This document shows, one piece after another, positions 56,101 to 62,048 of a stretch of 64,000 bases of DNA. Under the pieces are notes generated by a model, which was not told the DNA's origin, ran no database searches, and worked only from the letters and a program-made list of their open reading frames with translations. Every line of letters starts with the position of its first letter. Position 1 is the first letter of the stretch. The position numbers were made by a program, and so were the translations under genes. The DNA is taken from NCBI GenBank assembly GCA_017472605.1, contig JAFUPV010000019.1, positions 62,001 through 126,000 of the forward strand, read 5' to 3'. The stretch is from Lachnospiraceae bacterium. GTDB lineage: Bacteria; Bacillota; Clostridia; Lachnospirales; Lachnospiraceae.

Positions 56101-56177
56101 GGTTATTGCTCGTATACTCCATGAGATCCGTAACGGCTACGGTTTATTGATCGTATATTCCATGAGATCCAGAATGG
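56101..56177. repeat. 36-37 bp duplication at the 3' end of the alarmone synthetase gene
   Basis: The sequence around the stop codon (56141-56177) is repeated immediately downstream of the gene (56101-56136) with a one-base indel and several substitutions, so the C-terminal coding tail has been partly duplicated. Confidence 0.75.
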
Positions 56178-57054
56178 TGGCCGTTTCTACAGTCTTCATG
56201 GTGTGCACATAGTCCGCAGAGTCGGTGACGTCGGATGCGGCAGCAGCCTGGAACGCGGCAAGAAGCTCGGAAAAATCAGGGGAATCGCCGGATGGCGAAA
56301 GATCCGAGGATTCAAGCTCAACAGCAGTTCCTTCAACAGCAGCTCCTTCCATACCGGTATCCAGTTCTTCGGAACAGGGCAGCTTTGGCGTGGAGCCGGA
56401 ATCGATCATTTTCCGGATTTCCTGCATGCGCAGATCGGTCGCAGTGATCACGTCGGCACAGTGGCGCAGCTCATTTGTGATGAAATCCATGTTTTCCACA
56501 TGCTTTTTATATTTCATCTTGTGGTCAAGACTTGCCCAGAAATCCATGGCGATCGTTCTGTACTGCACTTCCACATGCATATATCTTTTATCAGAAGAAA
56601 GATAAATCGGGATTTCCAGGATCTGATGCAGGCTGCGGTATCCGTTGGGTTTGGGACAGCGGATGTAGTCGCGGACCTCCGTCACCCGGATATCATCCTG
56701 CATTGCCAGCAGGGACGATACGGTATAAATATCATCCGGAAAGGAACAGATGACGCGGACGCCGGCGATGTCGTTGAGATGGTTCTCCATGCTTTCAATG
56801 GTAAGCGGAAGCCCTTTTCGGTTCAGCTTTTCCAAAATGCTCATGGGAGACTTGATCCTGGTTTTAATCGTCTCGATCGGGTTGCGCTGGTACTGTGTGC
56901 TGAACTCTTCATTCAGGACTTTCAGTTTTGTTTCTATTTCCATCAATGCACAGCGGTTATAGACCATCAGATCCAGGAACGGCTTCATGGATTTGAAATA
57001 TTTTTCCGTCTGTTCCAGCTGGGCCTGATTTAAAATGGTTTCTGATTCTGCCAT
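56137..57054 (-). CDS. Small alarmone synthetase-like GTP pyrophosphokinase
   Basis: The 305-residue protein contains a RelA/SpoT synthetase domain (about 40-205): IKTRIKSPMSILEKLNRKGL, NDIAGVRVICSFPDDIYTVS and PKPNGYRSLHQILEIP are typical, with the catalytic Glu in HVEVQYRTIAMDFWASLDHK. There is no hydrolase domain, so it resembles RelQ/SasB-type synthetases, which make (p)ppGpp. It is about 90 residues longer than RelQ, with a low-complexity acidic tail (GMEGAAVEGTAVELESSDLS near 235) that itself looks duplicated. It is a single gene, separated from mtnN by 118 bases. Confidence 0.9.
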   Translation of the reverse strand: MAESETILNQAQLEQTEKYFKSMKPFLDLMVYNRCALMEIETKLKVLNEEFSTQYQRNPIETIKTRIKSPMSILEKLNRKGLPLTIESMENHLNDIAGVRVICSFPDDIYTVSSLLAMQDDIRVTEVRDYIRCPKPNGYRSLHQILEIPIYLSSDKRYMHVEVQYRTIAMDFWASLDHKMKYKKHVENMDFITNELRHCADVITATDLRMQEIRKMIDSGSTPKLPCSEELDTGMEGAAVEGTAVELESSDLSPSGDSPDFSELLAAFQAAAASDVTDSADYVHTMKTVETATILDLMEYTINKP

Positions 57055-57125
57055 GTTAAATGACCTCCAATCAATGGTATTTTATCACACAGGCCTGCGG
57101 CGGGCAAGTAAACTTTCTATTAATC

Positions 57126-57147
57126 TTGATGGATTATAATATATCAA
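57126..57147. promoter_or_regulatory. leuA -10 region inside an imperfect palindrome
   Basis: TATAAT at 57135-57140 lies at the centre of TTGATGGATTA/TAATATATCAA, a 22-bp imperfect inverted repeat (9 of 11 pairs). The -35 is weak. Such an overlap suits repression of leuA. The alarmone synthetase promoter should lie nearby on the other strand. Confidence 0.45.
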
Positions 57148-57232
57148 CAAAACTGATTAAAATTACCACTACACATTTTGCAGTGTCTATGGTAAGATAA
57201 AATCCACCTATTAAATTGATGATTTTTAATTC

Positions 57233-57391
57233 ATGTACTGGCACAGCGGGATCGCGGTTGTGGTCAGGCTGGAAGTCAGTACACTGGTCTGCATGGACGT
57301 CTGTCGGAGCGCGGCGGTAAGGAAACGTGCGAAGGCAGCGAACATGTTGGTTTTCATAATTATAGAAGGAAATGAGAGGATGTTTATATGA
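57233..57391 (+). CDS. Possible leader peptide overlapping the leuA start
   Basis: An open frame of 52 codons starts at an ATG at 57233 and ends in a TGA that overlaps the leuA ATG (ATGA). It begins MYWHSGIAVVVRLEVSTLVC, rich in Val, Ile and Leu, as in many branched-chain leader peptides. Evidence against it: no good ribosome binding site precedes it, and I see no clear terminator hairpin between it and leuA. The opposite strand is also open here. Treat it as a candidate only. Confidence 0.3.
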   Translation: MYWHSGIAVVVRLEVSTLVCMDVCRSAAVRKRAKAANMLVFIIIEGNERMFI

Positions 57392-59376
57392 AGCCGAGTG
57401 AAAAGTATCAGAAACAGTATTTTATGCCGCCGGTCGTCACATACGACTGGGTGAAGAAGGATGCCATTGATAAAGCACCGCTGTGGTGTTCTGTGGACCT
57501 GCGTGATGGAAATCAGGCACTGGTTGAGCCGATGAGTCTGGATGAGAAGGTTGAGTTCTTCAAGCTTCTTGTGGATGTTGGTTTTAAGGAGATCGAGATC
57601 GGTTTCCCGGCTGCATCCGAGACCGAGTATCAGTTCTGCCGTACCCTGATCGAGCGCAACCTGATTCCGGAGGATGTAACGATTCAGGTTCTTACCCAGG
57701 CGAGAGAACATATCATCAAGAAAACCTTTGCTGCATTAAAGGGTGCGCCTCATGCAGTGGTTCATGTTTATAACTCTACTTCCGTTGCTCAGCGTGAGCA
57801 GGTGTTCAAAAAGTCAAAGGAGGAGATTCGGAAGATTGCTGTTGACGGTGCGACTCTTCTGAAGGAGCTGGCGGAGAAGACAGAAGGAAACTTCACCTTC
57901 GAGTACAGTCCGGAAAGCTTCACCGGAACGGAGATGGATTACGCGCTGGAGGTCTGCAATGCAGTTCTGGATGTATGGAAGCCGACTCCGGACAACAAAG
58001 CGATCATCAACCTTCCGGCAACGGTAGAGACGGCAATGCCCCATGTGTTTGCCTGCCAGGTGGAATACATGAGCAAAAACATGAAATACCGCGACGGCGT
58101 TGTGTTAAGCCTTCATCCGCACAATGACCGCGGCTGCGGCGTCAGCGACGCAGAACTTGGTCTGCTGGCCGGAGCGGATCGAATTGAGGGTACGCTGTTT
58201 GGAAACGGTGAGCGTACCGGTAATGTGGACATCATCACCCTTGCCATGAACATGTTCTCCCACGGCGTGGATCCGGAGCTGAATCTGACAGACATGAAGC
58301 ATCTGGTAGAGGTTTATGAGCGTGTGACCGGTATGGTGGTTCATGACCGCCAGCCATATGCAGGAAAGCTGGTGTTCACTGCGTTCTCCGGTTCCCATCA
58401 GGATGCCATTGCCAAGGGCATTGCCTGGAGAGAGGCGGGAAAGAGCTCCATGTGGAACGTTCCGTATCTGCCGATCGACCCGAAGGATGTGGGCCGGACC
58501 TACGATTCCGATGTCATCCGCATCAACAGCCAGTCCGGAAAGGGCGGTGTCAGCTACATTCTCAAGACCAATTTCGGCTTGAGTCTGCCGGAAAACATGA
58601 GAGAAGAGGTTGGCTATACGGTCAAGGATGTTTCCGACAAGGAGCATAAGGAGCTGACCCCGGCTGTTGTTTACCAGATCTTTGAGGACAATTACATCAA
58701 TCCGAAGAACGTGTTCCAGGTGATAGAGTGCCACTTTAAGCAGGAAAATGGAATTGTTGCCAATGCAACCCTTCATCACTGCGAACATAATCAGGTGGTT
58801 ACCGGAACCGGTAACGGCCGTCTGGATGCAGTGAGCAACGCAATTAAGAGCTATTTTAATGTCAGCTATGAGCTGAGCTTCTATGAAGAGCATTCGCTGA
58901 CCAAGGGAAGTTCGTCCAAGGCGGTTGCCTATGTTGGCGTTGTCAGCAACGGAAGACGCTACTGGGGTGTCGGCATTGATAACGATATCATCAAGGCTTC
59001 CATTGAAGCCCTTGCAGTTGCGGTAAATAAGGTGGAAGAGATTCAGAATGCCCAGTTTGCCCGGGACAAAAGAATGGTTGAGATCATGAACTACATTCAG
59101 GCAAACTACCTGAACGTAACTCTGGAGAGCCTGTCCGACAAGTTCTACCTGTCAAAGCCGTATCTGTCCAAATACATCAAGGAAAAATCCGGCATGACCT
59201 TTGGTGAGCTGGTGAAGAAGGTTCGTTTGAAGAAGGCAAAGACACTGCTTAAGAGCAGCTCTATGACCGTGGAAAGCATCGCGCTTTCGGTTGGTTACCA
59301 GAACGTCGAGCATTTCAACCGACTGTTCAAAAAGGCGTTCCAGATGACACCGGTTCAGTATCGGAATCAGAAATAA
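57388..59376 (+). CDS. leuA: 2-isopropylmalate synthase fused to a C-terminal AraC-type DNA-binding domain
   Basis: The 662-residue protein starts as a type-2 LeuA of normal length (about 1-556). SVDLRDGNQALVEPMSLDEK (about 36) holds catalytic Arg/Asp, GFKEIEIGFPAASETEY follows, and LHPHNDRGCGVSDAELGLLA with LFGNGERTGNVD supplies metal His and Asn. The leucine-sensing LeuA dimer region lies at about 425-556. Without a stop it continues into a complete AraC/XylS double helix-turn-helix (about 560-660): LESLSDKFYLSKPYLSKYIK with EKSGMTFGELVKKVRLKKAK, then ESIALSVGYQNVEHFNRLFK with KAFQMTPVQYRNQK. The synthase condenses acetyl-CoA and 2-ketoisovalerate in leucine synthesis. The fused domain could make it a leucine-responsive regulator. 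No other leu gene follows. Confidence 0.92.
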   Translation: MKPSEKYQKQYFMPPVVTYDWVKKDAIDKAPLWCSVDLRDGNQALVEPMSLDEKVEFFKLLVDVGFKEIEIGFPAASETEYQFCRTLIERNLIPEDVTIQVLTQAREHIIKKTFAALKGAPHAVVHVYNSTSVAQREQVFKKSKEEIRKIAVDGATLLKELAEKTEGNFTFEYSPESFTGTEMDYALEVCNAVLDVWKPTPDNKAIINLPATVETAMPHVFACQVEYMSKNMKYRDGVVLSLHPHNDRGCGVSDAELGLLAGADRIEGTLFGNGERTGNVDIITLAMNMFSHGVDPELNLTDMKHLVEVYERVTGMVVHDRQPYAGKLVFTAFSGSHQDAIAKGIAWREAGKSSMWNVPYLPIDPKDVGRTYDSDVIRINSQSGKGGVSYILKTNFGLSLPENMREEVGYTVKDVSDKEHKELTPAVVYQIFEDNYINPKNVFQVIECHFKQENGIVANATLHHCEHNQVVTGTGNGRLDAVSNAIKSYFNVSYELSFYEEHSLTKGSSSKAVAYVGVVSNGRRYWGVGIDNDIIKASIEALAVAVNKVEEIQNAQFARDKRMVEIMNYIQANYLNVTLESLSDKFYLSKPYLSKYIKEKSGMTFGELVKKVRLKKAKTLLKSSSMTVESIALSVGYQNVEHFNRLFKKAFQMTPVQYRNQK

Positions 59377-61464: not shown

Positions 61465-61511
61465 TTTACGGGTCAGACGATCCATTTTATAATTGCATCA
61501 TGCCTGTCGAA
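61465..61511 (+). promoter_or_regulatory. Promoter and candidate 0A box of the Spo0A-like gene
   Basis: TTTACG (61465-61470), 17 bases, TATAAT (61488-61493). A TGTCGAA heptamer, the core of the Spo0A-binding box, lies at 61505-61511, about where transcription should start. A 7-base match is expected by chance several times per window, so the box is tentative. Confidence 0.5.
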
Positions 61512-61583
61512 AAAGGCGAAAACCAGAATAACATGCAAAAGAGAATGACGGGCATGAGAAAAACACAGCAGGAGGATGATACA

Positions 61584-62048
61584 ATGTTTCAGATTTCAGA
61601 AGGAATTAAGGGCGTTCACATTATTGGGGTATTTGAGAACCGGGAATCTCTGGACCGTTTGCTGAGTACCTGTCCAATCAATCCGCGCAGCCGCTATGTG
61701 CTGATGGAAGTCGGACTGGATCGGGAAACGGTGCAGGATGTTCTGGCAGGACTTGGAATCAGCGGAACGCTGGCAGGTGCCCAGTATCTGCATGATGCGG
61801 TCACAATTGCGATGGATGACTTTGAGATGATTGAGCGGATTACAAAGCTGATGTATCCGCGCATTGCGAAGATGCATGGGACGACGGCGACCCGGGTGGA
61901 GCGTGCGATCCGTGTTGCAATTGAAAAATCATGGAATGAGGCGGATCCGGAGTATCGAAAGAAGGTATTCGGCATGATTGGCGGGCCGAAACAGGAACGT
62001 CCGACGAATACCGAGTATATTGCAACGATTGTACGCTATCTGAAGTAA
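61584..62048 (+). CDS. Receiver-less Spo0A-type DNA-binding protein
   Basis: The start at 61584 has GGAGG 8 bases upstream and lies after the predicted transcription start near 61500. The 154-residue protein carries the Spo0A C-terminal effector domain (about 48-154): TLAGAQYLHDAVTIAMDDFE, RITKLMYPRIAKMHGTTATR with VERAIRVAIEKSW, and ERPTNTEYIATIVRYLK, all strongly Spo0A-like. The usual 120-residue phosphoreceiver is replaced by a 45-residue N-terminus (MFQISEGIKGVHIIGVFENR) of unknown fold. Canonical Spo0A is therefore presumably elsewhere in the genome, and this would be a paralogue not controlled by phosphorylation. Confidence 0.9.
   Translation: MFQISEGIKGVHIIGVFENRESLDRLLSTCPINPRSRYVLMEVGLDRETVQDVLAGLGISGTLAGAQYLHDAVTIAMDDFEMIERITKLMYPRIAKMHGTTATRVERAIRVAIEKSWNEADPEYRKKVFGMIGGPKQERPTNTEYIATIVRYLK

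Follow-up and report, generated by a model that had tools for sequence, protein, structure and literature searches.

The stretch of DNA analysed here, hereafter the window, comprises 64,000 nucleotides. Within it, one gene runs as an uninterrupted frame from the ATG at 57388 to the TAA at 59376 and encodes a protein of 662 amino acids, a complete type-2 2-isopropylmalate synthase (LeuA) with a full C-terminal AraC-type domain. LeuA carries out the first committed step of leucine synthesis. The features of the locus are the following:

57134..57171, + strand: predicted operator, with ATCAA at 57143, TGATTAAA at 57154 and a third element at 57165
57190..57198, + strand: extended −10 element TGGTAAGAT, its hexamer 50 bp past the start of ATCAA
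57204..57229, + strand: weak second operator-like stretch downstream of the predicted transcription start, the window's copy recognized by eye only
57205..57387, + strand: untranslated leader without a T-box, with no Rfam match at gathering score
57388..59376, + strand: fused leuA-araC gene, domains by Pfam and NCBIfam
57481..58305, + strand: HMGL-like catalytic TIM-barrel domain, residues 32–306 (Pfam PF00682)
58369..58566, + strand: IPMS_D2 linker domain, residues 328–393 (Pfam PF22615)
58651..59034, + strand: LeuA_dimer domain, residues 422–549 (Pfam PF08502, 89 bits)
59035..59067, + strand: variable linker, residues 550–560 (mean conservation 0.57 across residues 550–581)
59068..59370, + strand: AraC-type DNA-binding domain with two helix-turn-helix (HTH) units, residues 561–661 (PF12833, PF00165)

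Two neighbors may be mentioned. A RelA_SpoT-domain protein of the small alarmone synthetase type, with no other Pfam match, is encoded at 56137–57054 (− strand); its gene and leuA diverge from an intergenic region that they share and that contains the operator. At 61500–62048 (+ strand) lies the gene of a 182-aa protein with a Spo0A C-terminal DNA-binding domain, in which no receiver domain was matched.

All Pfam matches on the 662-aa protein exceed the curated cut-offs, and within the AraC-type domain HTH_18 (PF12833) covers residues 582–661 and HTH_AraC (PF00165) residues 621–660. The NCBIfam model NF002991, 2-isopropylmalate synthase of the PRK03739 type, matches residues 4–548 with 804 bits against a cut-off of 455, and the equivalog TIGR00970 (leuA_yeast) scores 673.9, slightly below its cut-off of 697.4. 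The initial annotation had described a frame continuous from LeuA into a full double helix-turn-helix of about 100 residues. Both points are borne out by the open frame and these domain matches, and the latter also by an AlphaFold2 model, in which seven helices (residues 561–659) form the AraC domain after a short linker and the first HTH helix starts about 13 residues past the leucine domain's final long helix. The model (pLDDT 80.5, pTM 0.62, rmsd 18.9 to Mycobacterium tuberculosis LeuA) is good for the domains and not for their arrangement, so no geometry is argued from it.

The catalytic residues of the LeuA part appear intact. D40, E176, H243, H245 and N279, as well as H337 and Y360 slightly beyond the HMGL-like domain boundary, are identical in 100/100 aligned full-length fused proteins, and position 39 is equally invariant; the metal-binding and catalytic roles of these positions are presumed after M. 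tuberculosis LeuA. The LeuA_dimer domain we take to be the leucine-binding allosteric domain of the LeuA family. Among the best-conserved parts of the protein are the two recognition helices, whose mean conservation (identity to the commonest residue in the 100 fused proteins) is 0.88 and 0.91; the corresponding means are 0.86 in the catalytic domain, 0.75 across the HTH domain as a whole, 0.73 in the leucine domain and 0.57 in the linker. The HTH domain thus appears to be maintained for a reason, and degenerate DNA-binding residues, which had been considered at the outset, are not what is found. In the window's genome the fused gene is the sole match to the LeuA part; the 65 other matches start at residue 524 or later and are essentially the HTH part alone.

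The fusion is widespread. Named relatives indicate that the family is Lachnospiraceae. Of 299 genomes sampled from it, 270 match a LeuA-alone query at 1e-100, and 72 match a query made of the leucine domain plus the HTH at 1e-45; 68 of these reach the query end, one (G163) is cut by a contig end, and three (G061, G112 and G256) extend little past the leucine domain. As the leucine and HTH domains are matched as one stretch in 68 of the 299 genomes, the fusion is not an artefact, and the initial annotation's reading of an unbroken junction holds. The same junction recurs in dozens of separately assembled genomes, isolates among them (including Schaedlerella arabinosiphila, Butyrivibrio proteoclasticus and Mediterraneibacter glycyrrhizinilyticus), which practically rules out an assembly or frameshift artefact. 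The taxa of LeuA proteins with a C-terminal HTH were mapped, as had been suggested. Among the best 80 loci, fused genes occur in Schaedlerella, Mediterraneibacter, Faecalicatena, Butyrivibrio, Roseburia, Lachnospira, Lachnobacterium, Eisenbergiella and Suipraeoptans (several of the named fused loci being metagenome bins), and unfused relatives in Blautia, Lactonifactor and Ruminococcus. A draw of 398 genomes across the phylum yielded one genome outside the family with the full fusion (G575, assigned to another family, assembly contamination given as 2 percent).

The history of the fusion was read from trees of LeuA parts, the rooting of which does not come from the method and which have some weak inner branches. 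With 87 parts the fused/unfused label needs two changes; the larger tree of 163 parts requires eight, of which six or more fall on well-supported branches. Because unfused rows are nested in the fused clade, one gain followed by losses is the reading adopted, and the fusion circuit is likely to have a single origin in the family, added to a leucine T-box that was already there. Many of the genomes are metagenome-assembled, and the counts below are of loci, which are not independent events since the fused loci mostly form one clade. The loci were picked by similarity to the window's protein, so the unfused set is without distant LeuA proteins. Duplicates (L037, L243, L252, L253, L256 and L277) and a locus without a LeuA frame (L070) were dropped before the counts of 100 fused and 61 unfused loci; L073 and L025, with less than 200 bp upstream, stand outside the 100.

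When the upstream regions of fused genes are read side by side, one common box is visible, a predicted operator of 38 bp (TTAAAAwAnATCAAtnaAAnTGATTAAATTTrtCACT). Its ATCA, TGAT and rTCA are spaced 11 bp; a 22-bp direct shift gives r 0.37, and inverted axes give r 0.52 and 0.67. The window's copy lies inside the region that the initial annotation had named as regulatory (57060–57390) and has a weight matrix score of 42.0 with its own site excluded from training. ATCAA-N7-GATTAAA, allowing up to two mismatches, occurs within the 600 bp upstream of 59/65 fused genes (a count that includes both L037 and L062, which are the same locus) versus 4/42 unfused genes, and all four unfused matches carry two mismatches. 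The 38-column weight matrix was applied within 1000 bp to unique loci with at least 200 bp upstream, training loci being scored leave-one-out and new loci directly. It places the operator at 95/100 fused versus 2/61 unfused loci, with the contig-cut fusion L027 counted as fused (94/99 and 3/62 if counted as unfused). Both operator-bearing unfused loci sit within the fused clade. Held-out loci alone give 33/36 fused and 2/19 unfused, and the top score in 64 dinucleotide shuffles of fused upstream regions is −2.1, compared with a threshold of 7 that was chosen after the scores were known.

Four fused loci have neither an ungapped operator nor a T-box (L010, L257, L259 and L265). If the spacer may be one base longer or shorter, L010 reaches 20.6 (its site is one base shorter) and L257 still has nothing; L265 (3.7) and L259 (0.6) stay below the threshold of 7, still above all unfused loci (best −4.0) bar the two exceptions.

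The promoter that goes with the operator has a recurrent layout. An extended −10 element, TGnTAnnAT, is found at offset 50 in 68/94 loci and at 48–51 in 78/94, and is absent there in 16; its background rate is 0.0015 per position. With transcription putatively starting near 57205, the operator would cover about −71 to −34. The −35 of fused promoters is above chance yet poor: it has on average 3.29 of six consensus bases versus 2.73 in random windows, and at least four of six in 28/79 promoters versus 17 percent of random windows. A second operator-like site stands 74–76 bp from the first in 25 of 59 related loci (27 at any spacing); none was scored in the window itself or in 32 of the 59. The window's leader is GC-richer at 57226–57370 (+ strand), with a small open frame on the opposite strand; a repeat element was rejected for this stretch, which is single copy in the genome.

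Genome-wide searches indicate how far such a site could reach. Across 20 genomes with the fusion, the core ATCAANNNAANTGATTAAA has 16 exact matches, 15 of them at leuA; in 19 of these genomes leuA has a site with no more than one mismatch, and the window's genome has no other site at that level. Twenty unfused genomes contain no exact match to the core and 20 one-mismatch matches. Away from leuA, there are 25 core matches in the 20 fused genomes, and 12 of the 25 were inspected: none has the extended −10 in place, and 11 score below 7. An off-leuA match in L122, from the window's genus, scores 18.4 and has no −10. Among the sites inspected, the operator is nearly private to leuA, though weaker sites may lie in other parts of the genome.

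The initial annotation had looked to leu/ilv promoters in general, and of these leuA has a candidate operator. Before 15 leuC and 15 ilvC genes of 15 fused genomes no operator was found (best 2.6 against the threshold of 7), nor a T-box core. A wide leucine regulon is rejected on these grounds, and control by the fusion would end at leuA.

The T-box, a leader RNA that senses uncharged tRNA, is distributed in the opposite way. Its core (one mismatch allowed, within 1000 bp) is present at 54/61 unfused versus 21/100 fused genes; 23 of the 100 fused upstream regions have hits, and those of L047 and L260, far upstream of the operator and not in the leuA leader, were set aside. Letter-shuffled upstream regions gave 43 matches in 1550. 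The Rfam T-box (RF00230) was found in 10 of 11 core-positive and 0 of 9 core-negative loci, and neither the window nor L009 has one at gathering score. The specifier appears to be CTC or CTG, both leucine codons, in nine loci read by eye. Where fusion and T-box occur together, the operator lies upstream of the T-box in 20 of the 21 loci, L062 being the exception. A sigma-70-like promoter with at least 10 of 12 consensus bases is found in 35/51 unfused T-box loci (4/51 when letter-shuffled), whereas 3/21 fused T-box loci have one as strong. From this contrast in promoter and T-box, the fusion seems to accompany a change from a strong promoter with RNA attenuation to a seemingly activator-dependent promoter. 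Our best reading is that the T-box was often lost after the fusion, the window's lineage included. A tree-aware test of fusion against T-box gives on average 1.9 pairs for, 1.0 against and 3.1 tied, without a clear trend, so the order of events is our own reading.

In L016 (G007), the T-box ends about 500 bp before leuA and the operator is at −815, with a seemingly inserted stretch in the leader; a second T-box core at −104 is a weak match, like those of the letter-shuffled background. Stretches around leuA in L274 and L276 contain Clostridiales-1 RNA and TwoAYGGAY RNA.

Operator and HTH are also largely lost together. By our own reading of the tree, the HTH was lost about six times within the fused clade; four of these lineages are without the operator (L278, L077, L273 with L274, and L282) and two still have it (L272, where the HTH frame is broken, and L275). 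L275 (G078) has a LeuA without HTH; its operator and the distance to the −10 are preserved, and a T-box is absent. In L062, 11 of the 32 conserved HTH positions are altered, more than in any other of the 100 fused proteins, and there is no operator. G575, outside the family, has fusion, operator (47.9) and T-box together. A tree-aware sign test of fusion against operator gives four pairs for, none against and two tied (p 0.125), too few pairs for significance. Decay of the HTH correlates with operator score at rho −0.30 and decay of LeuA at rho −0.34; as a test, HTH decay against operator strength was rejected as not specific, LeuA decay correlating as well.

At the level of single residues, 61 of 93 loci have lysine and 17 have glutamate at position 590, which lies at the first recognition helix. 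With lysine, the operator has CA at offsets 24–25 in 43 loci, TCA at 24–26 in one and neither in 17; with glutamate, TCA at 24–26 in 13, CA at 24–25 in none and neither in four. Residue 590 and operator base 24 have the top corrected mutual information among the tested pairs, with a runner-up nearly equal, and much of the covariation traces clades.

The initial annotation had proposed that the fusion controls transcription directly. Comparison favors this, through the conserved recognition helices, the operator at 57134–57171 and the linked loss of HTH and operator; since HTH loss or decay mostly goes with operator loss, we consider direct control most plausible, with its own gene as the main target. 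In many gut bacteria LeuA has an HTH domain and a matching operator before its own gene, so that a single protein probably synthesizes leucine, responds to it and adjusts its own expression, a task for which relatives use an RNA switch. We therefore regard the fusion, at a probability of about 0.72, as a single-target, self-activating trigger enzyme that has succeeded the T-box at its own promoter. We infer that the fusion itself binds the DNA, that it activates rather than represses, and that leucine is its signal. In outline, the LeuA part would catalyze the first leucine step while its C-terminal domain binds leucine, and the AraC-type domain would bind the predicted operator (−71 to −34) of a promoter with an extended −10 and a poor −35. 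When leucine is scarce, the fusion would sit on the operator, recruit RNA polymerase and activate leuA; when leucine is bound, the enzyme would be inhibited and its DNA-binding domains released or re-oriented. In M. tuberculosis LeuA, leucine binds to the regulatory domain and the inhibitory signal is relayed via the linker domain (PMC10464499). In the fusion, such leucine-driven movement could extend to the HTH.

The same parts could be wired differently. As an autorepressor or dual regulator, the fusion would shut leuA off at high leucine from its operator or operators, the second site blocking transcription. Biosynthetic genes are usually under negative autoregulation, and the second site, found 74–76 bp off in 25 of 59 loci, would lie downstream of the predicted start. 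However, it is unscored in 32 of the 59 and weak in the window, and a main operator upstream of or touching a poor −35, at fixed spacing to an extended −10, is the layout of an activator; we consider this wiring unlikely.

A further alternative leaves the fusion out of leuA control: the operator would be the site of another regulator and the fusion's HTH would act elsewhere. Two unfused genes do keep the operator. Yet it accompanies the fusion from lineage to lineage, in most of the losses and in a second family as well; it occurs almost only at leuA, and it varies together with a residue in the fusion's own recognition helix, which makes this alternative improbable. Still less likely is the HTH to be a passenger with some structural role in the enzyme and no DNA binding. 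It was lost several times while LeuA stayed intact, but the recognition helices, at 0.88 and 0.91, are conserved above the catalytic domain (0.86) and the leucine domain (0.73), and we give this very little credence.

Beyond what had been noted at the start, then, the fusion is old and widespread in its family, and it seems to have leuA nearly alone as its target and to stand in for the T-box. With somewhat less assurance than for the self-activating trigger enzyme as such, we favor a stepwise course in which a one-polypeptide circuit, which catalyzes, senses leucine and activates its own single promoter, displaced a riboswitch: first the T-box alone, next the T-box together with fusion and operator, and finally these two without the T-box. 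All three stages would be extant in one family, with the cassette in a genome of a second. Such a series would be a natural one for following the replacement of a riboswitch by a protein switch, and the fusion itself would be a small, naturally occurring leucine sensor whose operator is short and defined. The bacteria concerned live in gut and rumen, where their branched-chain amino-acid metabolism matters to hosts. The initial annotation knew of no characterized example, and no title in the open-licence literature searched describes a LeuA-AraC protein, an absence that is weak evidence as it covers open-licence papers only; within that literature, the fusion would be the first described biosynthetic enzyme with an AraC-type activator governing its own gene.

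Several known systems share parts of this design. M. tuberculosis LeuA (1sr9, 3fig) is the best structural and sequence match, with the same domain order through the leucine domain; its chains stop there, whereas the fusion continues into the HTH. The T-box (RF00230) occupies the leuA leader of most unfused relatives and stands alongside the operator in some fused loci; its sensor is RNA in the leader, whereas that of the fusion would be a protein responding to leucine at the promoter. At araI of araBAD, AraC has its operator just upstream of or touching the −35, with elements at helical spacing, and the predicted operator is placed similarly. However, AraC senses via a cupin, the fusion would do so via the leucine domain of LeuA, and the fusion's promoter has an extended −10. 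Ada joins an AraC-type HTH to a DNA repair methyltransferase and activates its own gene. The fusion likewise combines an AraC-type domain with a catalytic one and, as we propose, activates itself; but Ada is a repair protein with an irreversible methylation switch, whereas LeuA is an enzyme that turns over and has an allosteric domain with a reversible ligand. PutA, BirA and NadR, like the fusion, unite a metabolic enzyme and a DNA-binding domain in one protein, and their DNA-binding domains have folds other than the AraC type. Trigger enzymes are enzymes with an acquired DNA-binding domain, PutA among them (PMC8249747). PutA is described there as a repressor whose binding is confined to the spacer that separates its own gene from putP (PMC8249747); the fusion is likewise predicted to act beside its own gene, but with an AraC-type domain, from an activator position and on a biosynthetic gene.
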